DNA from: Natronococcus sp. A-GB7
Lineage (GTDB): Archaea > Halobacteriota > Halobacteria > Halobacteriales > Natrialbaceae
NCBI RefSeq assembly: GCF_029688865.1
Contig: NZ_JARUKV010000017.1
Location: 1 to 64,000 of the forward strand
Direction: 5' to 3'
DNA length: 64,000 bases
In this document: positions 2,272 to 34,620 of the stretch, one piece after another
How positions within the stretch are numbered: position 1 is the stretch's first letter
Layout: every line of letters starts with the position of its first letter
Notes under the pieces: generated by a model
Seen by the model: only the letters and a program-made list of their open reading frames with translations
The model's database searches: none
What the model was told of the DNA's origin: nothing
Translations under genes and position numbers: made by a program

Positions 2272-3511
2272 CTATGTTCGAAACCCGAAATTAGATTCAC
2301 CATTAAATATCGCTTTGGTACGTATAGTACTAGGATTGTACCTTATCTGGAAGGTGGTTTCTATCAATTGGAACGCAGTCGGAGAATGGCCCCTATTCCC
2401 ATACGGCTACTACGAAATATTCGCATTTGATATTGGGCTTGCATCCTTACCATATCTGCAGTGGATCGTTGTTATCGGACTAGTTTGCTTCGTCCTTGGA
2501 TATCGACTTCGGCTTACTAGCTTCCTTACTTCCATTATATTGACATATATGTCAATTATACTGATGATGATTCAGTGGTCAGGTAATACTGAAGCGATCT
2601 TTATGAGTGTCTTCATTATGTTATTTTATGGTCTATATTCTGAACAAGATGTTCTCTCTGCTGATGGTGTTCGTCGAACGCGAAACCGAGATCTGAACGA
2701 ATTAAACTCGTTTCTCACGACTCGCAACTTGCCGTCTTATCGAGCAGATATGCTTCGTTCGGCGCTACTCCTCATTGCGATTCTCTATTTCGGATCTGGC
2801 TTCGCTAAAATCGTACACGGGAACCCAATCGAATGGGCGACTGCTACGAGTTTAGGGAGGCATATCCGGAGTTCTCACTATCGACTCGGAATAGAACCTG
2901 TTGCAGGTCAATTGCTGCTCGATATGCCAGATATACTTATCGCGCTTGGTGCACTGACAACTCTTATTTTAGAAGTAGGACTGCTTATTGTACTAATATT
3001 TGGATTACCACTTACAATAGTTGTTCTGGGTCTAATAGGGTTCCACGTAGGTGTTTATGCAACCCAGGGGCCAATATTCCTAGATATGATTATAGTGCTC
3101 TTATTTTTCATGTCGTGGGATAAAATCCATTCATATATTTCAACTGGGAAAAGTATCGATTTAGTCTACGATGAGCACTGCTACTTCTGTGCCCGTTCAC
3201 TCTATGCATTCAAATTACTCGATCTCAATAAAACTGTGAATTTCTACACCCAGTACAATACACCGGCCGAGTATCGAGAGCGCGAGAACGTCAATTTCGA
3301 CGACGAAATGTATGTGTTTGCCGATGGAAACGTATACAGGGGATATCACGCTTTCAGGAGACTATTCAAGCAATTCGCGGTCACGGCTCCGCTCTCTTGG
3401 TTTATGACATTCCCACCAGTAGCGGCCGTCGGTAAACGGATATACACATACATTGCAAAGAACCGGGATCGGCACTTTGTCTGCAGCTACGACCCCAGTG
3501 AGCAGTCCTGA
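2261..3511 (+). CDS. HTTM-DCC fusion membrane protein
   Basis: About 416 residues with two parts. The N-terminal 290 residues carry several membrane segments and resemble HTTM (horizontally transferred transmembrane, vitamin K-dependent carboxylase-like) proteins. The C-terminal part is a DCC domain, with VYDEHCYFCARSL giving the CxxC thiol-disulfide motif. The ATG at 2261 is preferred over the in-frame TTG at 2243 because GGAGGT ends five bases before it. It overlaps the preceding membrane protein gene. HTTM-DCC proteins are usually thought to act in membrane redox or modification chemistry; the substrate is not evident here. Confidence 0.8.
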   Translation: MFRNYVRNPKLDSPLNIALVRIVLGLYLIWKVVSINWNAVGEWPLFPYGYYEIFAFDIGLASLPYLQWIVVIGLVCFVLGYRLRLTSFLTSIILTYMSIILMMIQWSGNTEAIFMSVFIMLFYGLYSEQDVLSADGVRRTRNRDLNELNSFLTTRNLPSYRADMLRSALLLIAILYFGSGFAKIVHGNPIEWATATSLGRHIRSSHYRLGIEPVAGQLLLDMPDILIALGALTTLILEVGLLIVLIFGLPLTIVVLGLIGFHVGVYATQGPIFLDMIIVLLFFMSWDKIHSYISTGKSIDLVYDEHCYFCARSLYAFKLLDLNKTVNFYTQYNTPAEYRERENVNFDDEMYVFADGNVYRGYHAFRRLFKQFAVTAPLSWFMTFPPVAAVGKRIYTYIAKNRDRHFVCSYDPSEQS

Positions 3512-3659
3512 TCTCTTTCCAAATTCGGCCAATCGCTAATCCGGTTTTGATATCGAATTTGATAGACGGGCTAGAATAGCTACGATGACGAGCGGGTGGC
3601 AACCGGCGAATAGTCGTCTGACTCTCGTGTGCGGCATTGTTTTTAGTATAATCAGTACC

Positions 3660-3848: not shown

Positions 3849-3942
3849 TATTGACGGTAACTGTAATGAATCTTGACTCAAAGAACTCTCGTCATACAGT
3901 ACCAAAATGCTCTTACAGATCCGCGTGAGCAATCAACCTATG

Positions 3943-5226
3943 CATATTTCCGTTATCGGCAGCGGCTACGTCGGGACGACGGTCGCGGCCTGTTTCGCAG
4001 ACCTCGGCCACCAGGTCACGGCGATCGACATCGATGAAGAGATCGTCAACACGCTCAACGAGGGGAAGGCCCCGATCGACGAGCCAGGTCTCGAGGACCT
4101 CCTCGAGAGACACGTCGGCGATCGACTCGAGGCGACCACGTCCTACGATGCGGTGCCCGAGTCAGATGTCACCTTCCTCGCGATCGGGACGCCCTCGAAC
4201 GCAGACGGCAGTATCGATCTCACCGCACTCGAGGCAGCCGCCGAGGCGACGGGTGAGGCCCTCGCCGACAAATCCGAGCGCCACCTCGTCGTCATCAAGA
4301 GTACGGTGACACCGATGAGTATCGGGGATGTCCTCGAACCAGCCGTCCACCGCGGAGCAAACGACAACAAGAACATCGAGGTCGGCATGAACCCCGAGTT
4401 CCTCCGTGAGGGCAGTGCGGTCTCGGATTTCATGCATCCCGACAAGGTCGTTTACGGAACGCGCTCCGAGTGGGCGACCGAACGACTACATGAAGTGTTC
4501 GAACCACTGCTTGAGGGACACGATGCCGACATCGTCGAGACCGATCCTGCGACGGCCTCGATGACCAAATACGCTAACAACGCCTTCCTTGCCTCGAAGA
4601 TCAGCCTCGTCAACGATCTTGGAAACATCTGCAAGGAGTTCGGCCTCGACGCTTACGAGGTAATGGAAGCGGTCGGTCTCGACGACCGCATCTCCGAACA
4701 GTTCCTCCGCAGCGGCGTCGGCTGGGGCGGGTCCTGTTTCCCGAAGGACGTCGACGCGATCATCGCAGCTGCACGAGAGGAGGGATACGATCCGGCGCTG
4801 CTCGAGGCCACCGTCGAGATCAACGATCGACAGCCCGAACGGCTGCTCGAACTGCTCGAGAACCACGTCAATCTCGACGGGTCCAGAGTCGCCGTTCTCG
4901 GTCTCTCGTTCAAACCCCAGACCGACGACATTCGGAACTCGAGAGCGATTCCGGTCATCGAGGCGCTCCTCGAGCAGGGAGCCGACGTCGTCGGATACGA
5001 TCCGGTTGCAGCCGACAACATGGCAGAGGAGTTCCCGAACATCGATTACGCCGAATCAGCTTCGGAGGCACTTCACGATGCCGACGGCACGCTCGTCGTC
5101 ACCGACTGGGACGAGTTCGCCGCACTCGACGAGGCGTTCGACGCGATGGCAAACCCCGTCGTCGTCGACGGGCGACGGATCATCCAGCGACGCGACGGAC
5201 TCACCTACGAAGGGCTGACCTGGTAG
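3943..5226 (+). CDS. aglM: UDP-glucose 6-dehydrogenase (AglM type)
   Basis: 427 residues. Oxidises UDP-glucose to UDP-glucuronate with two NAD, feeding N-glycan and exopolysaccharide synthesis in haloarchaea. The N-terminal Rossmann motif GSGYVG is at residues 7-12, the catalytic cysteine is Cys265 in GGSCFPKD, and the C-terminal UDP-binding domain carries the DIRNSRA motif. The start at 3943 (MHISVIGSGYVG) matches the family N-terminus, although an in-frame ATG at 3907 would add 12 residues. Its GC content is much higher than that of the genes at 432-3511, so this is probably the resident end of the glycan locus. The aglM symbol is by family resemblance to the Haloferax enzyme. Confidence 0.9.
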   Translation, partial: HISVIGSGYVGTTVAACFADLGHQVTAIDIDEEIVNTLNEGKAPIDEPGLEDLLERHVGDRLEATTSYDAVPESDVTFLAIGTPSNADGSIDLTALEAAAEATGEALADKSERHLVVIKSTVTPMSIGDVLEPAVHRGANDNKNIEVGMNPEFLREGSAVSDFMHPDKVVYGTRSEWATERLHEVFEPLLEGHDADIVETDPATASMTKYANNAFLASKISLVNDLGNICKEFGLDAYEVMEAVGLDDRISEQFLRSGVGWGGSCFPKDVDAIIAAAREEGYDPALLEATVEINDRQPERLLELLENHVNLDGSRVAVLGLSFKPQTDDIRNSRAIPVIEALLEQGADVVGYDPVAADNMAEEFPNIDYAESASEALHDADGTLVVTDWDEFAALDEAFDAMANPVVVDGRRIIQRRDGLTYEGLTW

Positions 5227-5280
5227 CAGCGACGTCTCTTTCGTTCGAACACTCAGAGGAGTTGTTCGCATATTTGTTGA

Positions 5281-5341: not shown

Positions 5342-6577
5342 TCAAGACGCATTCGGTCTGCTCGTCGATGGACGGGTTTCATCCTCGGAGCGGCTGTCTT
5401 GTGGCCCGGCCAATGAGGCCCCATCCTCGCTCGAGTCATCGCCAGTCGCCTTCTGGTCGGTTCGGGACTGGCTCTCTCCAGCGAGGTAGCGATCTGCGAT
5501 ATTGAGTGCGGCATTGAGATCTGCCTGATACTCGGAGACCCAGCAGTCGTCGTTCGAACAGCGGAAGGTTGCCTGCTGGGGTCGCGTTCCTTCTTCTCCA
5601 CACGCGTGGCATCGTTTCGAGGTGTCTTGCGGATCCACTGTCGCAACTGGAATTCCCACCTCGTGAGCTTTGTAGCGAATCTGCTCGTGCAGTTTGGCGA
5701 ACGACCACTTGTGGAGTCGCCGGTTCATGAACGCATCAGCATCGATGCTGTCCTGGATTCCAGTGAGGTCTTCGAGTACAAGTATGGGGTTATCGACAGC
5801 CCGTGCGTGATCGACGATCTCTCTCGAGACACAACTAATGATGTGGCCGATTTGGTTCCAGGTGTCCTCTCCGTACTCCTTGCTGAGCCGTTCGCTCCCA
5901 CGTCGCTGGAGGCGACGGACTGCCGTGAAGTACGTCTTTCGGAGATCGCGAACCCACGAGGCTTCGTCGCTGAAGATGAGCGGTGACGTCGGAGCGCCGC
6001 ACTCGTCCCGGTGACACACCGTTGCCAGAGCGGCATCGCCAACGTCTACACCGATCGGGGTTTGGTCCTCGGAGTCGGCAAGCAGATAGTCCGTAGTATC
6101 AGTGCGGACAGTGATGTGTAGATACCACTCACCATCGCTGTGTATGAGCCGACTCTCGCCCATTTCGGTCTCGCCACTATAGACGGCCTCGATCCACGAC
6201 CGTTGTTCGGGATTGATAGCAGCGGGGAGCCAGAGATTGTAGTCCTCGTGATGTGGAATTTTGACGTACCACTCGATTCTGTTCTCCGGCTTTCGATCCA
6301 GACAGATTCCCTCGTTCGTGAAGCGAACGGGATGATCATCGCTGAGTGCCTTTGCGTTGTAGCTCCCGCCACACAGCTGTGGAACGTACTTTTTGAGCGC
6401 GTTCTTCGCGTAGCCACTGAGATCGTATTCGACGACGATGTCGTTGGTCGCCGACTTCGAGGTACAGTTTGCTTCGAACGCAGCCTCAAGTGCGCACTGG
6501 TACGCCTGCTTCGTTTCCCAGAGCTTCCGCTCTTTGTGCGCGTTCGGATCGACAAGCTTCAGCTCTACTGTTTTCAT
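5342..6577 (-). CDS. tnpB: RNA-guided endonuclease TnpB (IS1341-type lone orfB)
   Basis: 411 residues, of normal length for haloarchaeal TnpB. The RuvC-like catalytic triad is intact: Asp178 (GVDVG), Glu269 (LVLED) and Asp353 (ADLNAALNIA). The zinc finger uses Cys323, Cys326, Cys340 and Cys345. The C-terminal 50 residues are a Ser/Asp-rich tail. No tnpA lies nearby, so this is an IS1341-type element that would need TnpA in trans to move. In known systems TnpB cuts DNA matching its guide next to a short motif and helps the element persist. The nuclease looks intact. It abuts the zinc-protein cassette at 6645. Confidence 0.9.
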   Translation of the reverse strand: MKTVELKLVDPNAHKERKLWETKQAYQCALEAAFEANCTSKSATNDIVVEYDLSGYAKNALKKYVPQLCGGSYNAKALSDDHPVRFTNEGICLDRKPENRIEWYVKIPHHEDYNLWLPAAINPEQRSWIEAVYSGETEMGESRLIHSDGEWYLHITVRTDTTDYLLADSEDQTPIGVDVGDAALATVCHRDECGAPTSPLIFSDEASWVRDLRKTYFTAVRRLQRRGSERLSKEYGEDTWNQIGHIISCVSREIVDHARAVDNPILVLEDLTGIQDSIDADAFMNRRLHKWSFAKLHEQIRYKAHEVGIPVATVDPQDTSKRCHACGEEGTRPQQATFRCSNDDCWVSEYQADLNAALNIADRYLAGESQSRTDQKATGDDSSEDGASLAGPQDSRSEDETRPSTSRPNAS

Positions 6578-6644
6578 CTTTTTCGTCCTGTTGGTAGCTC
6601 AGCGTGCGATGTAACAGTCGGTTCAGTCTACTGCCCGCTGTTCT

Positions 6645-7037
6645 CTATGGCGCACAGCCCTCCGTCGGTGGACTGAACGCCCGCAGCGCGAGTTCGGTGA
6701 GACACAGCCGTGAACTGCGCGGCGTGGGCAGCGCGATCGAGCCGAGCCGACCGCCGACCAGCAGTTCGGTCGTGCCGAGCGTCGGCGACCGAATCCGGCC
6801 GGGCGCACAGCCGTGGCAGAACAATCGAGGGATGTCCCACTGTGCAGCGTCGGCACAGCGGTACGCGTACGCGAACACGATGTCGGTCTCGCGCAGCGGC
6901 GATCCACACCCGATGCAGACGGCTGCGTCGGGTTTCGGGCCGACCGGGTGACCGTGGAGGACCTGTGCTGGCGTCGCGGTGACGGTCGGCTCCTCGCGAT
7001 GTCCGGCCCGGTACCGACGGCAGTCGTCAGCGGCCAT
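6645..7037 (-). CDS. Zinc-ribbon protein, cassette A (long partner)
   Basis: 130 residues, paralogous to the protein at 9301-9705: both share HGHPVG or AGHPVG, CIGCG, TD[IL]VFAYAYRCAD, PRLFCHGCAP, RIRSPTLG or TIRSPTLG, GGRLGSIALPT and RAFS. The CxxC pairs at Cys41/Cys44 and Cys74/Cys77, plus Cys61, suggest one or two zinc sites. The start at 7037 is chosen because GGAGG lies five bases upstream, and a longer open frame upstream overlaps the small partner. It overlaps the 3' end of the 47-residue partner by 11 bases, implying coupled translation. Function unknown. The divergent winged-helix gene at 7367 and the leader suggest tight regulation. Confidence 0.7.
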   Translation of the reverse strand: MAADDCRRYRAGHREEPTVTATPAQVLHGHPVGPKPDAAVCIGCGSPLRETDIVFAYAYRCADAAQWDIPRLFCHGCAPGRIRSPTLGTTELLVGGRLGSIALPTPRSSRLCLTELALRAFSPPTEGCAP

Positions 7038-7170
7038 CTTCCTCCGCCGTGTTGCGGGCGCTGAAACACGCAAAGCAGGGCAACTGGTCGTCAGTCGGAC
7101 CGGCACACCAGTCATGGTCGCATACCTTTCTGTCGGTGCGTTTTTGATGAATCGCGGTTGTAGTTGGCAT
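7027..7170 (-). CDS. 47-aa CDHDWC mini zinc protein, cassette A
   Basis: Tiny gene of 47 codons. The motif CDHDWC at Cys17-His19-Cys22, then GP, LP, and FACF with Cys35, is shared residue for residue with the 49-aa gene at 9695-9844, at the same distance from the start and the same position before the longer zinc protein. The Cys/His spacing suggests a single zinc knuckle. Reading-frame conservation between two otherwise diverged loci is the evidence that it is real. The start codon lies beside a hairpin that displays GGAGG in its loop. Confidence 0.7.
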   Translation of the reverse strand: MPTTTAIHQKRTDRKVCDHDWCAGPTDDQLPCFACFSARNTAEEDGR

Positions 7171-7172
7171 TG

Positions 7173-7241
7173 CTTCTCGCCTCCCGAGAAGTGCGGGCGG
7201 TGTCCTAGCACCGTCCAGTTTTACTGGATACCCGCCTCCTC
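7173..7241 (-). ncRNA. Switch-like structured 5' leader, cassette A
   Basis: On the - strand the leader can fold as a three-way junction. P1 pairs 7186-7191 plus 7193-7197 with 7231-7241 (one bulge, one GU), P2 pairs CGGTG 7198-7202 with CACCG 7209-7213, and P3 pairs CCAG 7215-7218 with CTGG 7224-7227. The 3' strand of P1 can instead pair with 7173-7179 (CGAGAAG with CTTCTCG), forming a hairpin whose loop 7180-7184 is the Shine-Dalgarno GGAGG, just before the ATG at 7170. The two folds exclude each other. The same arrangement with different base pairs is present at 9846-9918. Confidence 0.6.
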
Positions 7242-7264
7242 ATCTGCATATAACACCTCCGTCC

Positions 7265-7285
7265 ACTTAATAGTTACATTGTAAC
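7265..7285 (-). promoter_or_regulatory. Cassette A promoter and palindromic operator
   Basis: A perfect 13-base palindrome GTTACA-T-TGTAAC (7273-7285) abuts a TATA-like element (about 7265-7273). That element lies roughly 28 bases from the 5' end of leader helix P1, the right distance for transcription to start at the leader. The divergent winged-helix gene at 7367 is the natural candidate to bind here. In cassette B an inverted repeat occupies the same position relative to its TATA box. Confidence 0.55.
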
Positions 7286-7366
7286 ATATTTCGTAACAAC
7301 ATTTGCAATCCAAAATAGAACTAGCACCGAAATGTTTAGTGTAATATCGATGTAGCCAATAGTAAG

Positions 7367-7603
7367 ATGGTGAACGAGGATTTCGAGCCTAATGACCGGC
7401 AAGATGCGATCCTTGAGGTGCTAAAGGAAGGCCGGGAGGAGGGCAAACCATGGGGATACGCGAATCCTAAACGGCTTGAAGAAGCACTTGATACACGACG
7501 CCAATATATCAATCGAGCCCTCCGGGGACTCGTTGACGCAGGTTGGGTAGAAAAAGTAAACCGTGGACTCTATCGATTTGTGCGTGATCCGCGAGAGAAC
7601 TAA
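7367..7603 (+). CDS. Winged-helix regulator, cassette A
   Basis: 78 residues. A compact winged-helix fold is suggested by RQDAILEVLKEGR (helix 1), ANPKRLEEAL and RRQYINRALRGLVDAGWV (helix 2 and recognition helix), then the wing VNRGLYRFV. Resembles the small PhiH1-like and MarR-like repressors of haloarchaeal viruses and plasmids. Its C-terminus (YRFVRDPREN) parallels that of the cassette B regulator (YELVSDPRDN). Divergent from the zinc-protein operon with the palindrome between them, so autoregulation and control of that operon are likely by inference. Confidence 0.7.
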   Translation: MVNEDFEPNDRQDAILEVLKEGREEGKPWGYANPKRLEEALDTRRQYINRALRGLVDAGWVEKVNRGLYRFVRDPREN

Positions 7604-7644
7604 CAATATAGACCACATTACCGGGTTTTCCTTATAGTCGCGTC

Positions 7645-7998
7645 GACTGACGGGTCGCCTCGCTCGAGCACCTCTCGCAGAACCTGCTGGTGGGAATCAG
7701 CTTTGCCGACACCGCCGAGGACCCCCACAACTCGTATATCTACCCGTTGCTCAACACGGGCATCATCGGCGGCAGCCTCTATCTCGGCGCGCTGTCTATG
7801 CACTGAGGCAGGGGCGCTGGACGCCCTGGACCGCGTTCGTCGTCGAGCTGGGAATGGTGATCTTCCCTCTATATGGGCTTCGAGTCGCTGTTCCTTGGCG
7901 GACTGAGCGTCTCCTCGATCATGCTCGCACTTCTCCTCTATTCGCCGGAAGCAGACGGTCCCGTCACCGACATTCGATCGAAATTCGAGATCCGATAA
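7645..7998 (+). pseudogene. Frameshifted C-terminal relic of the O-antigen-ligase-like gene
   Basis: The + strand preserves, across frameshifts, the last 110 residues of the ligase-like protein at 14193: a segment like FADTAEDPHNSYIYPLL, NTGIIGGSLYLGAL, RWTPWTAFVV, then SLFLGGLS and DGPVTDIRSKFEIR ending in TAA at 7996. There is no start or N-terminal half. It lies between cassette A and the HNH genes. Confidence 0.8.
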
Positions 7999-8005
7999 TA
8001 CGAGT

Positions 8006-8617
8006 TCAGCTCTCGGCGTCCATCGATTCCAAATCCACCTCCTCGAGCACACCCTCCAACGACCGACGCCGAGCCCGTTCCCGCTCCAACTCACTCCGCA
8101 GCTTCTCGAGAGCCGACCACGCTGTACCGGGACAGGCGGCTCGATACCGAACGTTCTCGCGAGTCCGCAGACAGTTCATGCGCTCGAGCTGTGACACCAG
8201 CGACCGAAGCCGTTCTTCCGGGAGATCGAGCTCGCGCTCGAGTGTGTACACCGTCTGTCCGCCCTCTTTCAACACCCGAAGCACGCGAAGCGCCTCGTCG
8301 CGATCGGTTTTGGCGAACTGCCGCTCGACGTGTGCTCCCTCGAGGCGATTGTGACAGGTCCCACAGACCGTAACGAGATTCAGGTCGAGACGCGCGTCGG
8401 CCTTCGGGAGGTACTTTCCCGGAACGATGTGGTGGGCCGCCATCGACAGCGGATAGTACTCGTCGTTCCCGTTGTGGTTCCCGCAGCGCTGACAGACGCT
8501 GTTGTCCCGCTTTCGAACCTCCGTCGCACGTTTCGTCCAGTCGCTTCCACGCTCTTCGGGGACGTCGAACTCCGGGCCGTCGGCGCTCGGCCCAGCGGAG
8601 TCCTCCTTGCGACTCAT
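8006..8617 (-). CDS. HNH endonuclease with C-terminal coiled coil
   Basis: About 203 residues from the ATG at 8617; an earlier in-frame start at 8746 would overlap the neighbouring HNH gene. The HNH core is CQRCG...AAHHIVPGKYL...NLVTVCGTCHNRLEG, with CxxC pairs for structural zinc and a His-His catalytic step. After it comes a helical region and an Arg/Glu-rich C-terminal coiled coil. Such HNH proteins are typical of mobile elements and proviruses. It sits directly downstream of another HNH gene on the same strand, with both lying between the two zinc-protein cassettes. Confidence 0.75.
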   Translation of the reverse strand: MSRKEDSAGPSADGPEFDVPEERGSDWTKRATEVRKRDNSVCQRCGNHNGNDEYYPLSMAAHHIVPGKYLPKADARLDLNLVTVCGTCHNRLEGAHVERQFAKTDRDEALRVLRVLKEGGQTVYTLERELDLPEERLRSLVSQLERMNCLRTRENVRYRAACPGTAWSALEKLRSELERERARRRSLEGVLEEVDLESMDAES

Positions 8618-8676
8618 CGATCTGTCCCCGCCAGTAGTGGCTTCGCTCCTCGGACTCCCGGGTGTGTTCTCATCGT

Positions 8677-9156
8677 TCAGTGTGGAATCCGCCAGTCGAT
8701 CGGTTCCGACCGGACGATCTCTTCGTCTTCGACTCCTGAACCGCACGTCGGGCAGAAGTTGGTGTTCTCACGTTTGGTTAACTGATTCGGAGTGCCACAC
8801 TCTCGACAGAGAATCTTGTACCCGGAGAGGTTGCGATACGTTTTCTGTGACTTTGCTCGGTGACTCGACGCATCGAGTAGTTCGTAGTTTTCCAGCCTGT
8901 TGTCGAACGGACAGCCGTTGACGTGGTGGACCTCCTTTTCGGCGAGTTCGCCGATATCGTCTACGAGCAGCGTCGCGTGAAGTCGGTGAACTTGGACGCG
9001 GTGACGAGCGCCGTTGTGTTTCGTATCGATCCCTCTGTGACCGTACGGGTCACATTGGATTGCCGGCACTCGAGCGAAATGAATCTGAGACGCATGAACC
9101 GACTTTGCTCTGTGCGAGTCGAACGTCCGATCACAGTGGGGACAGTCGACGCTCAT
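8677..9156 (-). CDS. C2H2 finger plus HNH endonuclease
   Basis: 159 residues from ATG 9156; a longer frame to 9225 is possible. Three parts: an N-terminal C2H2 finger (DCPHCDRTF...HASQIHF), an HNH core (EVHHVNGCPFDNRLENYELL followed by SSH), and a C-terminal zinc ribbon (CREC...CPTC). This layout resembles homing-type or phage HNH nucleases, where added fingers bring DNA specificity. It is encoded tandemly with the HNH gene at 8006 on the same strand. Confidence 0.75.
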   Translation of the reverse strand: MSVDCPHCDRTFDSHRAKSVHASQIHFARVPAIQCDPYGHRGIDTKHNGARHRVQVHRLHATLLVDDIGELAEKEVHHVNGCPFDNRLENYELLDASSHRAKSQKTYRNLSGYKILCRECGTPNQLTKRENTNFCPTCGSGVEDEEIVRSEPIDWRIPH

Positions 9157-9300
9157 CTCACAGCCCACCGCTCGTTGTATCGGCGACCCGACTCGGACCC
9201 TCGCCTTCGAAGCGAAGCCGATCACTTGGACGATTCCGCCCTCGCAATCGTCGGCCGGCCCTCCTGATCGGGGGTTCGAGTAAGTGCGTGTCGACGGCGT

Positions 9301-9705
9301 TCATGGTGAAAAGCCCTCCGTCGGTCCGCTGAACGCCCGAAGGGAGAGCTCTGCCAGACACAGCCGAGCGCGACGCGACGTCGGCAGCGCGATCGAGCCG
9401 AGACGACCCCCGACGAGAGCCTCGGTCGCTCCGAGGGTCGGCGAACGAATCGTGTCGGGCGCACAGCCGTGACAGAACAGCCGCGGAACGGTCCACGCTC
9501 TCGAATCGGCACAGCGATAGGCGTACGCGAACACGAGATCGGTCTCGCGGAGTGTCGCGCCGCAACCGATACAGACGGCGGCGTGGGGTTGTCGGCCGAC
9601 CGGATGGCCCGCCAGCGTCTGCGTCGGGGTCGCGACGACAGCCGATCCGTCCTCGAGCGACGCCGGCCGCTCGGTCAGACACCCCGAAGTCTCATCAACG
9701 GGCAT
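9301..9705 (-). CDS. Zinc-ribbon protein, cassette B (long partner)
   Basis: 134 residues, paralogue of the protein at 6645-7037 with the same CIGCG, FAYAYRCAD, FCHGCAP, SPTLG, GGRLGSIALPT and RAFSGPTEG blocks in the same order, and differences mainly in the N-terminal 25 residues. Its ATG overlaps the stop region of the 49-aa partner by 11 bases, as in cassette A. The product is probably a small cytoplasmic zinc protein; I cannot name a function. Confidence 0.7.
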   Translation of the reverse strand: MPVDETSGCLTERPASLEDGSAVVATPTQTLAGHPVGRQPHAAVCIGCGATLRETDLVFAYAYRCADSRAWTVPRLFCHGCAPDTIRSPTLGATEALVGGRLGSIALPTSRRARLCLAELSLRAFSGPTEGFSP

Positions 9706-9844
9706 CCGACTTTCCCTCCGTTCTGTGCGCTACCTGGAAACACGCAAAGTAGGGGAGCCTGTCTCCGTTGGGTCCCGGACACCAGTCGTGATCGCACGAT
9801 TCAACCTCGTCACGTTTTTCAACGGCGGAATTCGTAGCTAACAT
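9695..9844 (-). CDS. 49-aa CDHDWC mini zinc protein, cassette B
   Basis: 49 codons. Carries CDHDWC at Cys17-His19-Cys22, GP, LP and FACF with Cys35, in the same spacing as the cassette A product; a second cysteine at position 32 in A is Tyr here, so it is probably not an essential ligand. The ATG follows a hairpin with a GAGGT-like Shine-Dalgarno in its loop. Translationally overlapped with the longer zinc protein. Confidence 0.7.
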   Translation of the reverse strand: MLATNSAVEKRDEVESCDHDWCPGPNGDRLPYFACFQVAHRTEGKSDAR

Positions 9845-9845
9845 G

Positions 9846-9918
9846 CTTCTCGGACCTCGAGAAGCGCAGGCGGTGTCATCACCACCGCCTGATTCTACTC
9901 AGGAACCCTGCGCTTCTC
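9846..9918 (-). ncRNA. Switch-like structured 5' leader, cassette B
   Basis: P1 is a perfect 12-base helix (9859-9870 with 9907-9918). Inside it are P2 (CGGTG 9871-9875 with CACCG 9883-9887) and P3 (CCTGA 9888-9892 with TCAGG 9899-9903), making a three-way junction with almost no unpaired linker. The inner end of P1 overlaps a competing 7-base hairpin (9846-9852 with 9858-9864) whose loop holds the Shine-Dalgarno region two bases before the start codon. The TATA box at 9944-9949 predicts transcription starting near 9920, at the first base of P1. Confidence 0.65.
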
Positions 9919-9943
9919 CAGTCTCTACTATCACGCCCACCAC

Positions 9944-9964
9944 TATATAGTTTGCCTCTCAAAC
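9944..9964 (-). promoter_or_regulatory. Cassette B promoter and inverted-repeat operator
   Basis: A clear TATATA (9944-9949) is followed, on its upstream side in - orientation, by the inverted repeat GTTTG-N5-CAAAC (9950-9964). Its position relative to TATA and leader matches the 13-base palindrome of cassette A, although the sequence differs. That is what is expected if each cassette has its own cognate repressor. Confidence 0.55.
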
Positions 9965-10056
9965 TCGAGTTAGAAGCTTGCGGACAGTACTCAAAGAGAA
10001 CCCTGGTGGGATGAGATAGCACTAAGTATGTAATGCAAGTATGCGAATCAAACAGC

Positions 10057-10299
10057 ATGGCACTCTCTGATAACGATCTCCGCGACGTCGATCAGGAGCT
10101 CCTGGAGTATCTACTCGAGGGACGTGTAACGCCCGTCTATGCGCGTGAGCGGATGAACGACGAGGAACGCAGAGACGTGACGAGCACGTATCTCGGACAG
10201 CGCCTTCAACGTCTCGAGGAGCACGGTCACGTGCGAAATCTATACGATACCGGACTGTACGAACTTGTTAGCGACCCACGTGACAACGACAGCAATTAA
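10057..10299 (+). CDS. PhiH1-like winged-helix regulator, cassette B
   Basis: 80 residues from ATG 10057, which lies about 26 bases past a TATA-like stretch and so would be leaderless; an upstream in-frame ATG at 10033 would add eight residues. DVDQELLEYLLEGRVTPVYARERM, TSTYLGQRLQRLEEHGHV and LYDTGLYELV fit helix 1, the recognition helix and the wing of PhiH1-repressor-like proteins. Divergent from the zinc-protein operon, like the gene at 7367. Confidence 0.7.
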   Translation: MALSDNDLRDVDQELLEYLLEGRVTPVYARERMNDEERRDVTSTYLGQRLQRLEEHGHVRNLYDTGLYELVSDPRDNDSN

Positions 10300-14192: not shown

Positions 14193-15410
14193 ATGAATCT
14201 ACGTCAACATCTCTGGGGTATGTCGTCGGAGGAGTCGACGGTGCCGGTCTACGATCCGATCCTCGCGCTGTTGCCGCTCATCAGCAGTCTCGCAGTGACG
14301 AGCTGGGTGGTCTCTCAGCGAGCCGGCTACATCATGACCGGCACCCTGTTGGTCGTAGTGGCGGCGTACGGAGTGTTGATGCCCGATATCCGGCTGCAGT
14401 TTGACGCGACGTTTCTCGTCCTAATTGGGGGGTACTGGCTCGGGCTGCTCGTCCACTACTACTACGCACCCCACACCGAGCTGTTGCAGTATATCGCTGT
14501 CACGCCGCTGGCGGTGCTTGCGACCGTGGTCGTGCTGCCGGCGTTGATCGACGGCCGGCGCCAGACGTTCACGATGGGGTTGACGGTCGTGGCCACGCTG
14601 CTCGCGGTGATCGGCCTCGCGATGCTGTGGCATGAACATCAGACGAGCGAGACCCTCTACGAGTTCGTCGGTGACTCAGTGTTCGGGATCGACGGCATCC
14701 GCACGACGTCGATCTTCGCGAACCCGAACGGCTACGGCTTTGTGATGATGGTCGGCAGCCTCGCCGCGCTGTACACATTCTTGGCCCGGCGCGGGGCGGT
14801 GTGGTTCGGCGCGCTCATGCTCTGTCTGCTGGGCTTCGTGCTGAGCGAGGGGGATGCTGCCTTCGTCGGGTTTACCGCCGGTGCCGTCCTCCTGGTCTCG
14901 GGCTTCGACCGTCGGTTCGGCTTTCTCGGAATCGCGCTTGCGGCCGTCGGCGTTGCCGTCGCGATCCGACTCGGTCACGTCGGCGACGTGATGGAGGGGA
15001 CCCTGTTGACCCGCGTCGACCGGTGGGTGGCCTCGCTCGAGCGCCTCGCCGAGGATCCGATGCTCGGGATCGGGTTTGCGGACACCGCCGCGGAGATCGG
15101 TGAATCAAGTGGCCCGCACAACTCCTACGTCTACCCTTTGCTCAACACGGGAATCATCGCCGGTAGCCTCTACCTGGGCGCGCTCGTTTACGCGCTGGGC
15201 CAGGGAATCCGCACCCGGTGGACGCCGTGGACCGGGTTCGTCGTCGGGCTCACGGTGGCGATCTTCCTGTATATGGGCTTCGAGTCGCTGTTCCTCGGCG
15301 GGCTCAGTCCCTCGTCGATCACCCTCGGGCTGTGTCTCGGCCTCCTGTTGTACTCGCCCGAGGACGACGGGCCGGTCACCGATCTCCGATCGAAGTTCCA
15401 CGTTCGATGA
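14193..15410 (+). CDS. O-antigen-ligase-like (Wzy_C) membrane protein, copy 1
   Basis: 405 residues with about ten membrane helices. The O-antigen ligase signature region is present: TSIFANPNGYGFVMM, a large outside loop containing LTRVDRWVASLERLAEDPML, and GPHNSYVYPLLNTGIIAG with the conserved His. Family members join or polymerise lipid-linked glycans outside the cytoplasmic membrane, which fits the glycan genes at 432-5226. The near-identical paralogue at 35697 has the same length. Upstream, both share a promoter-like stretch with ttatctctc and ccagcta.cacgg. The end (DGPVTDLRSKF) recurs in at least seven fragments elsewhere in the window, always on this strand. Confidence 0.8.
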   Translation: MNLRQHLWGMSSEESTVPVYDPILALLPLISSLAVTSWVVSQRAGYIMTGTLLVVVAAYGVLMPDIRLQFDATFLVLIGGYWLGLLVHYYYAPHTELLQYIAVTPLAVLATVVVLPALIDGRRQTFTMGLTVVATLLAVIGLAMLWHEHQTSETLYEFVGDSVFGIDGIRTTSIFANPNGYGFVMMVGSLAALYTFLARRGAVWFGALMLCLLGFVLSEGDAAFVGFTAGAVLLVSGFDRRFGFLGIALAAVGVAVAIRLGHVGDVMEGTLLTRVDRWVASLERLAEDPMLGIGFADTAAEIGESSGPHNSYVYPLLNTGIIAGSLYLGALVYALGQGIRTRWTPWTGFVVGLTVAIFLYMGFESLFLGGLSPSSITLGLCLGLLLYSPEDDGPVTDLRSKFHVR

Positions 15411-26563: not shown

Positions 26564-27364
26564 CTACATCGCCGCCACGTCGCCGCTCGAACCGGCACGG
26601 CGGCGGAGCCGAGCTTCGATGATGTAGAAAGCCGCGTTTATCACCGCGGCAATGAGTACCAGAACGGTAATAATGGCCAGCATTCGATCGACCTGTACGG
26701 TCTCCATGTAGAGCATCAGCGAGTGACCAAGACCGGCGCGAGCCGCAAACATCTCGCCGATGACGATTCCGAGGAACGTCAGGCTAAAGCCGAGTCGGAG
26801 CCCGATGACGAGACCGGGGAGTATCGAGGGGACGATCACTTCCTTGAATCGCTGCCACTGCGAGAGGCCAAGCGATTGCGCGACGTTCATGTGTGTGTCG
26901 TCGATCGTCGTCATCGCGCTCATAGTGAGGATCAACACGGGGAACACGCCGTGGAACCAGCCGAACGCGACCATCGAATCCATTCCCAGCCCGAAAATCA
27001 GCAGGAAGATTGGAAACAGCGTGATCTTCGGGATGGAGTAGGTGCCAAGAATCACCGGTTCGAACACTTCCTGCCAGAAGCGGCTCAGTCCCAGCATGAT
27101 CCCGACCCAGACGCCCGAGACGACCGCGATGAGGTAGGCGACGATCAGCGTCGTAACCGTCACCAGCAGGTCCTCGACCATCCAGCCGTCCTGGAAACCA
27201 TCGACCATCGTTTCGAACGTCTCGAGTGGCGTGGCCAGAGCGAACTGGCCGTACACCTCCGCGCCGAGCTGCCAGAGAGCGAGGATGATCAGCGGGACGG
27301 CGATCCGGCCGATCCGAACGATACTCCAGTTGCCAGGCAGTGACGTTTCAGATCTCGTACTCAT
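26564..27364 (-). CDS. ABC transporter permease (SsuC/TauC-like) 1
   Basis: 266 residues with six membrane helices. The cytoplasmic EAA loop, which contacts the ATPase, reads AQSLGLSQWQRFKEVIVPSI (residues about 163-182). Family members import sulfonates, nitrate, thiamine precursors or related small molecules. Its start overlaps the stop of the second permease (27361) by four bases, so the two permeases are likely made together as a heterodimer. Confidence 0.88.
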   Translation of the reverse strand: MSTRSETSLPGNWSIVRIGRIAVPLIILALWQLGAEVYGQFALATPLETFETMVDGFQDGWMVEDLLVTVTTLIVAYLIAVVSGVWVGIMLGLSRFWQEVFEPVILGTYSIPKITLFPIFLLIFGLGMDSMVAFGWFHGVFPVLILTMSAMTTIDDTHMNVAQSLGLSQWQRFKEVIVPSILPGLVIGLRLGFSLTFLGIVIGEMFAARAGLGHSLMLYMETVQVDRMLAIITVLVLIAAVINAAFYIIEARLRRRAGSSGDVAAM

Positions 27365-28161
27365 GTTCTGGCCCTCCGGTAGAGACGACGCTCGATCATG
27401 ATCAGCGCGATGTTGACTGCCAGCGAGACGAGGATCACGAACAGCATCGACGCATACATCGTCTGGACGTCGAAGCTGTCGTAACTGAACGAAATCAGCC
27501 AGCCGAGTCCGTTTTCAGCGAGAATGAACTCACTTGCGACGGTCCCGATGAGCGCGTAGATGAACCCCAATTTGAACCCGGTGAACACGTAGGGGGTCGC
27601 TGCTGGGAGGTAGATATGGCGGAACATCTGTGCCGACGTAAGGTTGAGGTTTTTCCCGACTTCTGGGTAAATATCAGGGATCTCCTTGAGACCCGACGCC
27701 GTGTTCGTGATGATGATGACGACGCTAAACAGCCACGCGATCGTGATGATCGGCATGATATTGAGCCCGAAGATAGCGATCAACAGCGGGTAGAACGCGA
27801 ATACGGGAATCGCGTAGTACGTCAGCAGATACGGGTCGAGTACGTCTTTCAGCGACTCGTATCGCCAAAGTAAGACCCCGGTTGGAATGCCGGTTAGGAT
27901 ACCGAGCGCGAAGGCTGCGAAGATCGCGGTGAACGTCTGGATGATGTGTGGCGTCAGCTCGCCGCTCAGCGTGAGCGAGACGATCTCGCTCAGCATCTCG
28001 GTGAGCGGGATCAACGTGGTCGGTTCGACGAGCCCGAACCGGGGCAGGAACTCGATGAGACCGAGCAGCCCGACGACGACGAGGGTCTGGTAGATTCGGA
28101 TCCGGTTGGCTCGGTCGCCGAGATCAACCGATCCGATACCATGACCCGATTCGACGGCCAT
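27361..28161 (-). CDS. ABC transporter permease (SsuC/TauC-like) 2
   Basis: 266 residues from ATG 28161; an upstream extension would run into the ATPase gene. Six membrane helices. The EAA-loop region is EVGKNLNLTSAQMFRHIYLP. Begins one base after the ATPase gene ends, so gene order in the operon is binding protein 2, ATPase, permease 2, permease 1. Confidence 0.88.
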   Translation of the reverse strand: MAVESGHGIGSVDLGDRANRIRIYQTLVVVGLLGLIEFLPRFGLVEPTTLIPLTEMLSEIVSLTLSGELTPHIIQTFTAIFAAFALGILTGIPTGVLLWRYESLKDVLDPYLLTYYAIPVFAFYPLLIAIFGLNIMPIITIAWLFSVVIIITNTASGLKEIPDIYPEVGKNLNLTSAQMFRHIYLPAATPYVFTGFKLGFIYALIGTVASEFILAENGLGWLISFSYDSFDVQTMYASMLFVILVSLAVNIALIMIERRLYRRART

Positions 28162-33247: not shown

Positions 33248-34452
33248 TAGATGACACCCTCCTCGATGAGGGTGTCGTACTCTTCGGGTGGGAGATCGAG
33301 CTCCTCAAGGTAGACCTCCTCGTTGTGCTCGCCGTGTCTCGGCCCCATGTGTGTGACCTCGCCGGGAGTTCTAGAGAACTTCGGGACGGGGCCGGCGGTA
33401 CGTACGTCGCCGACATCGTCGTCCTCAACGGATACGATATCATTTCGAGCCTCGTACTGTTCGTCCTCGAAGATATCCGCCATCGTATAGACCGGGCCGA
33501 CGATCGCATCCGCCGCCTCCATCTCTGTGATCGCCTCGTCGGTAGACCGCTGACGCGTCCACTCCTCGATGACCGCATCGAGTTCGGTAGCGTTGTCGAC
33601 GCGCTTTTCGTTCGTTTCGAACCGCGGATCGGATATCAGGTCCGCTCGGCCGATCGCGTCCATGACGTTTTCGAAGATACGCTGTGAGGACGCCGACAGC
33701 GTCATATAGCCGTCAGCCGTCTCGTAGACGTTTCGCGGAGCCGTGTTTGGGTGTTGGTTCCCGGTACGCTCTCTGATTTCGCCGGTGCGATCGTACGACT
33801 CGACGTCCCCGAGAAAGAGCCGGAACAGCGGTTCGTAAAGGCTCACGTCGATCGTCTGTCCGACGCCCGAACCGGTAACGTCGCGTTCGAAGATCGCAAA
33901 CATTGCGGCTTGAATCGCAAACTGTGCGGCGGAGAGATCAGCAAGACTGATCGGCGGCAGGAGTGGTTCCCGGTCCGGAAAGCCGTTAGCGTGGGCCCAT
34001 CCGGACAGACCTTCGGCGACGGTTCCGAACCCCGGCTTCTCCGACCGAGGGCCCGTCTGTCCGTACCCCGAGAGTCGAACGACGATCAGCTCCTCGTTGA
34101 CGGAACGGAGCTGCTTAGGCCCGATCCCCCACCCCTCGAGCGTTCCTGGGCGAAAGTTCTCGAAGAAGATGTCGGCACCCTCGATCAGCTCTAATAACAG
34201 TGCAGCACCCCGATCACTGCTCAAATCGAGCGTAACACAGCGCTTGTTCCTCCCGATCGATTTCCACCAGAGCGACACGTCGTCTTGAAACGGCGGCCAG
34301 GCGCGAATTGGGTCGCCGTGCTTCGGATGTTCGACCATAATAACATCCGCACCGAAATCAGCGAGCTGTGTCGTTGCGAATCCACCGCTGATCATTCCCG
34401 AACAGTCGATCACACGTAGGCCCGAAAGGGGCCCATCCGTTGTGTTAGTCAT
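33247..34452 (-). CDS. CaiB/BaiF class III CoA-transferase
   Basis: 401 residues from ATG 34452; a long upstream extension lacks family similarity. Family motifs: LSGLRVIDCSGMISGGFATT, LADFGADVIMVEHPKHGDPI, RNKRCVTLDL and RPGTLEGWGIG, with the linker region GVGQTIDVSLYEPLF. Moves CoA from one carboxylic acid to another through an aspartyl-CoA intermediate. Coupled to the LeuA-like gene downstream, so the CoA ester it makes or uses is probably that enzyme's substrate or product. Confidence 0.88.
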   Translation of the reverse strand: MTNTTDGPLSGLRVIDCSGMISGGFATTQLADFGADVIMVEHPKHGDPIRAWPPFQDDVSLWWKSIGRNKRCVTLDLSSDRGAALLLELIEGADIFFENFRPGTLEGWGIGPKQLRSVNEELIVVRLSGYGQTGPRSEKPGFGTVAEGLSGWAHANGFPDREPLLPPISLADLSAAQFAIQAAMFAIFERDVTGSGVGQTIDVSLYEPLFRLFLGDVESYDRTGEIRERTGNQHPNTAPRNVYETADGYMTLSASSQRIFENVMDAIGRADLISDPRFETNEKRVDNATELDAVIEEWTRQRSTDEAITEMEAADAIVGPVYTMADIFEDEQYEARNDIVSVEDDDVGDVRTAGPVPKFSRTPGEVTHMGPRHGEHNEEVYLEELDLPPEEYDTLIEEGVI

Positions 34453-34620
34453 CGGTCTCTCTGCATAGACCGACCGGACAACTAGGGAAGTATGTTGTAC
34501 CATCTTCGGTTGGTGATTCATAAGCACCCCACGTCCGGCGATGCGTGTGCGTTCGAAAACCGGTGCAGCGATCCACGATCCCAAACACGGAGATGCTAGG
34601 AACGCATAGCCACCCGGACG

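Follow-up and report, generated by a model that had tools for sequence, protein, structure and literature searches.

To our knowledge, few structured regulatory leaders have been described in archaea. PhiH is a long-standing model of archaeal virus regulation, and leaderless mRNAs form a well-translated class in haloarchaea. A 2021 paper counted one experimentally determined natural archaeal riboswitch, the only natural precedent cited being the fluoride riboswitch of Thermococcus, and showed for a synthetic case that masking of the AUG (and of the Shine-Dalgarno sequence, SD) by secondary structure controls translation in Haloferax (PMC8241225). The leader RNA described here resembles translational riboswitches and the synthetic theophylline riboswitch of Haloferax (PMC8241225) in having exclusive folds that would mask or expose the initiation region, but it has no known ligand and precedes viral early genes rather than a pathway. 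Like the put RNA of phage HK022 (PMC9378689), it is a folded RNA with which early viral transcripts begin, although its fold is a different one and has a rival in a hairpin at the start codon. Ribosomal-protein leaders of Halobacteria (S15 and others, PMC7247131) are likewise structured haloarchaeal leaders, some with three-stem junctions, whereas the new leader is not located upstream of ribosomal genes and has no Rfam match. The leader appears to work like a translational riboswitch or a phage leader RNA, yet to fit neither class, as it comes with no known ligand, no coherent set of metabolic genes and no Rfam match.

The leader was found in two copies, A and B, in the window, the 64,000-nucleotide stretch of the genome of Natronococcus sp. 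A-GB7 that was analysed. The features of the two cassettes are as follows.

9907 to 9918, minus strand: P1 5' strand of copy B, GAGAAGCGCAGG, with the predicted transcript start at 9918; covaries in the family, and the homologous T4 start of PhiH1 is base 1 of P1
9859 to 9870, minus strand: P1 3' strand, CCTGCGCTTCTC, common to the P4 5' arm
9888 to 9903, minus strand: P2 hairpin, CCTGA-GTAGAA-TCAGG, arms 9903-9899/9892-9888; covaries in the family
9871 to 9887, minus strand: P3 hairpin, CGGTG-GTGATGA-CACCG, arms 9887-9883/9875-9871; the most sequence-conserved part of the family
9845 to 9865, minus strand: P4 alternative hairpin, GCTTCTCG-AGGTC-CGAGAAGC, arms 9865-9858/9852-9845, 8 bp
9943 to 9949, minus strand: TATA box TATATAG of the copy B leader promoter, identified by its sequence and by the AT-rich peak at -31 to -25 across the leader set
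9949 to 9965, no strand: inverted repeat AGTTTGCCTCTCAAACT over the BRE/TATA region, candidate repressor operator
9695 to 9844, minus strand: first ORF, a small CxxC-type protein of 49 aa (CDHDWC...FACF); same family in 21 of 92 operons
9301 to 9705, minus strand: second ORF, a Zn-binding-type protein of 134 aa (CxxC...CxxC...PTLG) without a Pfam family
10033 to 10299, plus strand: divergent gene of the winged-helix repressor type, a homologue of BJ1 ORF6 (phrog_38164)
7170 to 7241, minus strand: copy A leader, 47 bits and E 2e-11 with the covariance model
6645 to 7170, minus strand: copy A genes, a 47 aa CxxC protein (7170-7027) and a Zn-type protein (7031-6645)
7367 to 7603, plus strand: divergent MarR-like winged-helix gene of copy A, of a different family from the divergent gene of copy B

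Read on the minus strand from 9918 to 9842, the leader of cassette B consists of GAGAAGCGCAGG GTT CCTGAGTAGAATCAGG CGGTGGTGATGACACCG CCTGCGCTTCTC GAGGTCCGAGAAGC ATG. P1 is a perfect 12-bp helix in which GAGAAGCGCAGG (9918-9907) pairs with CCTGCGCTTCTC (9870-9859), and it encloses P2 and P3 with no linker between the two, bearing out the preliminary description of a perfect 12-base helix that closes two inner hairpins. That description had also placed a 7-base hairpin two nucleotides before the start codon, with an SD in its loop. The hairpin exists and shares a strand with P1, but it has 8 bp and its 3' arm directly adjoins the ATG at 9844 (in the 7-bp form, 1 nt would remain between them); an SD-like GAGGT is present, but the loop is AGGTC and the first G lies in the stem. 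Because P4 reuses the P1 3' strand, P1 and P4 are mutually exclusive. Folding of the transcript strand as RNA gave -39 kcal/mol (z = -4.4), with none of 200 shuffles equally good, and a chance origin of the fold is disfavoured far more by the covarying homologues than by the folding energy. As TATATAG (9949-9943) lies about 25-28 nt upstream of 9918, transcription in the window is predicted to start near 9918. The proposal that the transcript and the long helix begin at one and the same base agrees with this spacing and with the annotated T4 start of the homologous PhiH1 leader at P1 +1.

Copy A has the same architecture, with P1 at 7241-7231/7197-7186 (A7192 bulged), P2 at 7228-7223/7219-7214, P3 at 7213-7209/7202-7198, P4 at 7191-7185/7179-7173 with loop GGAGG, and the ATG at 7170; it also has a compensatory change of A-T to G-C. 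A gene for a TnpB-type transposon protein (5342-6577) directly follows cassette A on the same strand. Beside the cassette, 7639-7998 is a decayed partial copy of the membrane protein gene at 14193-15410 (part 15012-15327), with blocks that are 77-86% identical.

A search with a covariance model had been set beforehand as the test of the leader, and it returned covarying homologues far beyond the two copies. Model R1, built from eight leaders, identified the element in 114 of 293 Halobacteriales genomes; model R2, built from 82 leaders and applied with a cut-off of E ≤ 1e-4 for the genome count, identified it in 168 of the 293 genomes and in 63 of 87 genera. Matches with R2 numbered up to eight per genome, and six in that of Natronococcus sp. 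A-GB7. In a sample of 247 genomes across the phylum there were 18 positives, all of them Halobacteriales, and none in the sampled genomes outside the order. One genome (L121) carries three leaders inside 1.4 kb (3929-4022, 5001-5087 and 5184-5277), two of them mutually divergent. An exact-pattern search of genome contigs gave many bacterial matches (Mesorhizobium, Bradyrhizobium); these were set aside after seven loci had been checked with R2, none of which exceeded 20 bits or had an E-value better than 0.008. Pattern scans located the leader in six IMG/VR contigs, one of which has two copies. A leader of H. salinarum lies on pHSAL1 (NZ_CP038632, 129977-129892).

Rfam 15, searched gathering-free with a limit of E = 1, gave no match in window positions 6500-10200. 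For seven relatives it returned tRNA and chance matches only, and at the leaders just a sub-threshold MIR851 match over the leader pair of L121. No report of a structured leader in an archaeal virus was found in the open-access literature searched, the older subscription literature on PhiH lying outside it. Judged against Rfam 15 and the open-access literature, the leader RNA is well supported as a previously undescribed family of cis-acting leader RNAs with members in archaeal viruses.

The evidence for two alternative folds comes from the alignment of 82 leaders and from 92 distinct leaders. In the alignment, P1-P3 were paired in 94% of cells, and none of 500 shuffles was as high on all five measures. 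Two-sided changes occurred in 23 of the 24 P1-P3 pairs and in 297 cells, against 70±8 in shuffles, and the covariation signal was lost on shifting the partner by 1-3 columns. P4, to which this alignment was not fitted, was paired in 89.7%, with 39 two-sided cells compared with 9±3 in shuffles. P1 had at least 8 bp in 91 of the 92 leaders and P4 at least 5 contiguous bp in 88, while an overlap of at least 4 nt between the P1 3' strand and the P4 5' arm was present in 85. The P4 3' arm ended 0 nt from the ATG in 56 leaders and 1 nt from it in 27 (83 of 92). With the strict GCTTC class excluded, the three strands were mostly matched in the remaining 28 leaders, that is, they usually change together; examples of such triplets are AGACCGAGG / CCTCGGTCT / CAAGACC and TGAGCACGG / CCGTGCTGG / CCAGCA. 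A P4 of at least 5 bp formed in 89% of these 28 leaders with their own tails and in 24% with tails of the GCTTC class. The mutually exclusive folds at the start codon anticipated from the two window copies are therefore seen as covariation of both P1 and P4.

P1-P3 contained 116 G·U pairs against 39 A·C mismatches. This excess points to transcript-strand RNA, subject to the caveat that the alignment had been fitted with a model. P4 taken by itself had no G·U signature (4 G·U and 24 A·C, mostly loop-closing pairs). The A-T content of the promoter in the leader set was highest at -31 to -25 upstream of the first P1 base, and the BRE/TATA regions of different copies contained palindromes of unrelated sequence, which we infer to be repressor operators. 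The P3 and P2 loops were partly conserved across the family. When L009, L018, L021, L023 and others are compared with the window copies, the P3 hairpin loop occurs in both orientations (CTGGAA/TTCCAG, CTAGGA/TCCTAG), that is, with small inversions between the arms. These inversions suggest strand switching at a hairpin in DNA and a loop function tolerant of inversion.

The leader was also present in Humcor1 (27284-27369, E 9e-9), PhiCh1 (34047-34134, E 4.6e-4) and BJ1 (3502-3600, E 0.0036), the assignment in BJ1 being weak by score and leaning on position. The same applies to PhiH1, which gave no match in a filtered whole-record search and 14.6 bits unfiltered. These four are temperate haloarchaeal tailed viruses, Humcor1 being an induced provirus of Halorubrum coriense (PMC7911831), and in all of them the leader separates the early operon, which it heads, from the repressor-side gene and is divergent from the repressor. 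With R2, no leader was detected in HF2, HRTV-5, HCTV-1, HGTV-1, HFTV1, Hardycor1, Humcor2 or Harhisp1, and Halfgib1 had only a match at 0.16.

Lytic growth of PhiH requires T4, which Rep represses (PMC4284463). The PhiH1 record places the start of this early lytic transcript at 34556, which is the first base of P1, and RNA from 34556 forms P1 from GACGAAGGTAATCGCA/TGCGGTTGCCTTCGTC (16 bp), followed by P2 and P3. Relative to PhiH1, PhiCh1 has a compensatory P1, GTCGAAGG/CCTTCGAC, and a C-G/G-C exchange in P3. The PhiH T4 leader and the PhiCh1 ORF48/ORF49 intergenic region share with the other leaders the divergent repressor, the three-way junction, a P1 that begins at the annotated start (PhiH1) and a similar P3 (GTGCTGGTATCAC), but they are longer and contain extra hairpins, and with the AUG 70-100 nt further downstream their P4 equivalent is weaker and less clear. 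The PhiH and PhiCh1 literature searched describes transcripts and repression but not the RNA structure. An unannotated ORF of PhiCh1 (MARFNRHPKSNV...; L306:1710, NC_004084 about 34209), located upstream of ORF49 and related to PhiH1_275, has a hairpin, GTCTTC...GAAGAC, directly before its ATG.

The genes on either side of the leader vary. A divergent ORF of one of three regulator-type families was present at 81 of the 92 leaders, 38 like the window gene and BJ1 ORF6, 16 MarR-like and 27 like Humcor1 gene 155 (phrog_26393), and PhiH RepR represents a fourth repressor family (phrog_2440). The phrog_26393-type family, small and without a winged helix (RALLTDTEREQIAG...; Humcor1 gene 155, L080, L096, L143), occupies the repressor position in about 30% of leaders and is likely to be an unrecognised regulator. 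Downstream genes of the 92 leaders encoded the PTLG-type Zn protein in 36 cases, SWIM proteins in 24 and small CxxC proteins of two families in 21 and 10, while 20 leaders had none of the searched gene families downstream. The first genes after the leader were diverse and mostly coded for viral-type proteins of unknown function; they did not form a coherent metabolic or transport gene set. The 134 aa protein, which belongs to a haloarchaeal protein family of about 36 relatives without a Pfam model, defined by two CxxC pairs and the motif PTLG(A/T)(T/S)E, had matches in 42 of 125 genomes of the taxonomic family, and nearly all close relatives had the same leader upstream. Neither it nor the SWIM protein matched phage records in tblastn searches, and a scan of IMG/VR with the 134 aa protein found nothing. 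The term cassette understates what is, as a whole, the repressor/early-operon control region found in temperate viruses of haloarchaea and in their remnants.

The interpretation that we favour, and hold to be probable, is that of a bistable 5' leader governing access to the start codon in early, lytic-side operons of haloarchaeal temperate tailed viruses, the window copy being a leader kept in a provirus-derived remnant. Transcription would start at P1 base 1, and P1, P2 and P3 would form first as the RNA is made, closing the 5' end as a three-way junction. In this P1 state the segment before the AUG would be single-stranded, the proposed ON state. The stretch that immediately precedes the AUG repeats the P1 5' strand and could capture the P1 3' strand to form P4, a hairpin whose end lies 0-1 nt from the AUG; this is the proposed OFF state. 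The energies of the P1 and P4 states, computed for 37 °C and about 1 M salt, had a median difference of 0.5 kcal/mol (IQR -2.9 to 3.6), and with values so nearly equal even a slight input could shift the balance and thereby fix how strongly the first early gene is translated. Such an input might be ions, a ligand, helicase or ribosome loading, or the binding of a factor to the conserved P3/P2 loops. None of the viral genes is found with every leader, so that an intrinsic trigger or a factor of the host is probable. The preliminary description had regarded the SD as the displayed element; an SD-like motif occurs in just 33 of the 92 leaders and SD sequences are not used in 5' UTRs of H. volcanii (PMC3986360), so SD display was rejected as a general explanation and the start codon is the likely target.

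The leader could also act before translation initiation or after it. The main rival, which we regard as unlikely, is a processing element in which P4 marks a cleavage just before the AUG, yielding a leaderless mRNA, and P1 prevents or delays this cleavage. The 0-1 nt spacing between P4 and the ATG in 83 of 92 leaders is tighter than occlusion alone needs; in addition, PhiH1 transcript T5 begins 8 nt before an ATG, the PhiH1 annotation includes cleavage of T4', a larger transcript of the T4 region, and RNase processing of PhiH early transcripts is documented (PMC4284463). However, T5 is annotated as a transcription start, and processing leaves the conservation of a competing P1 unexplained. Counting further against it, we know of no RNase that recognises a P4-like hairpin. 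It is improbable that the folded 5' end is a put-like or stability element, acting on RNA polymerase (antitermination) or protecting the mRNA, with the P4 overlap secondary: like HK022 put RNA (PMC9378689) it sits at +1 of early viral operons whose transcripts are long, and the P3/P2 loops are conserved, but the alternative helix at the AUG covaries, something put-type RNAs have no need of, and the distance from the leader start to the AUG hardly varies.

The preliminary description had suggested a riboswitch for zinc or another metal, or autoregulation by the operon's own zinc proteins; both now appear quite improbable. At least one CxxC or SWIM-type family lies within 3 kb of 62 of the 92 leaders, but 30 leaders have no searched Zn family within that distance, and as not even the PTLG-type or SWIM families are universal, a zinc ligand was rejected as a general explanation. 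The repressor families vary as well, and no metal homeostasis gene was seen near the leaders. More generally, an operon-encoded ligand is disfavoured because the RNA stays constant while repressors and operon genes vary. Very improbable, finally, is a DNA-level element in which the repressor binds the repeats, or the repeats serve in recombination or replication, while the RNA fold is incidental. The divergent repressor genes, the mobile context and the two orientations of the P3 loop, suggesting that the hairpin at times forms in DNA, are in keeping with such an element, but the GAAGC triplet stays the same where both the repressors and the promoter palindromes are unrelated, P2 and P3 covary without sharing the GAAGC repeat, and both the G·U excess on the transcript strand and the fixed position relative to TATA and ATG argue for RNA.

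More than half of the Halobacteriales genomes sampled contain the leader, as do isolated temperate viruses and PhiH. The covariance model is also of use in annotating provirus control regions and correcting first-gene starts. More tentatively, and with some doubt, we suggest that the leader is an RNA switch complete in itself and widespread, placed on the lytic side of the circuit that decides between lysis and lysogeny in archaeal viruses. The module is paired with no fewer than four unrelated repressor families and numerous early genes, and it would respond to a host-derived or physical signal in gating the first lytic protein. If bistable control of the start codon holds true, a post-transcriptional layer would be added to Rep/T4 repression in haloarchaeal viruses, and a hairpin docked at the AUG would control translation in a group that largely ignores Shine-Dalgarno sequences; the leader may then give these viruses a hidden point of control over whether infection is dormant or lytic.
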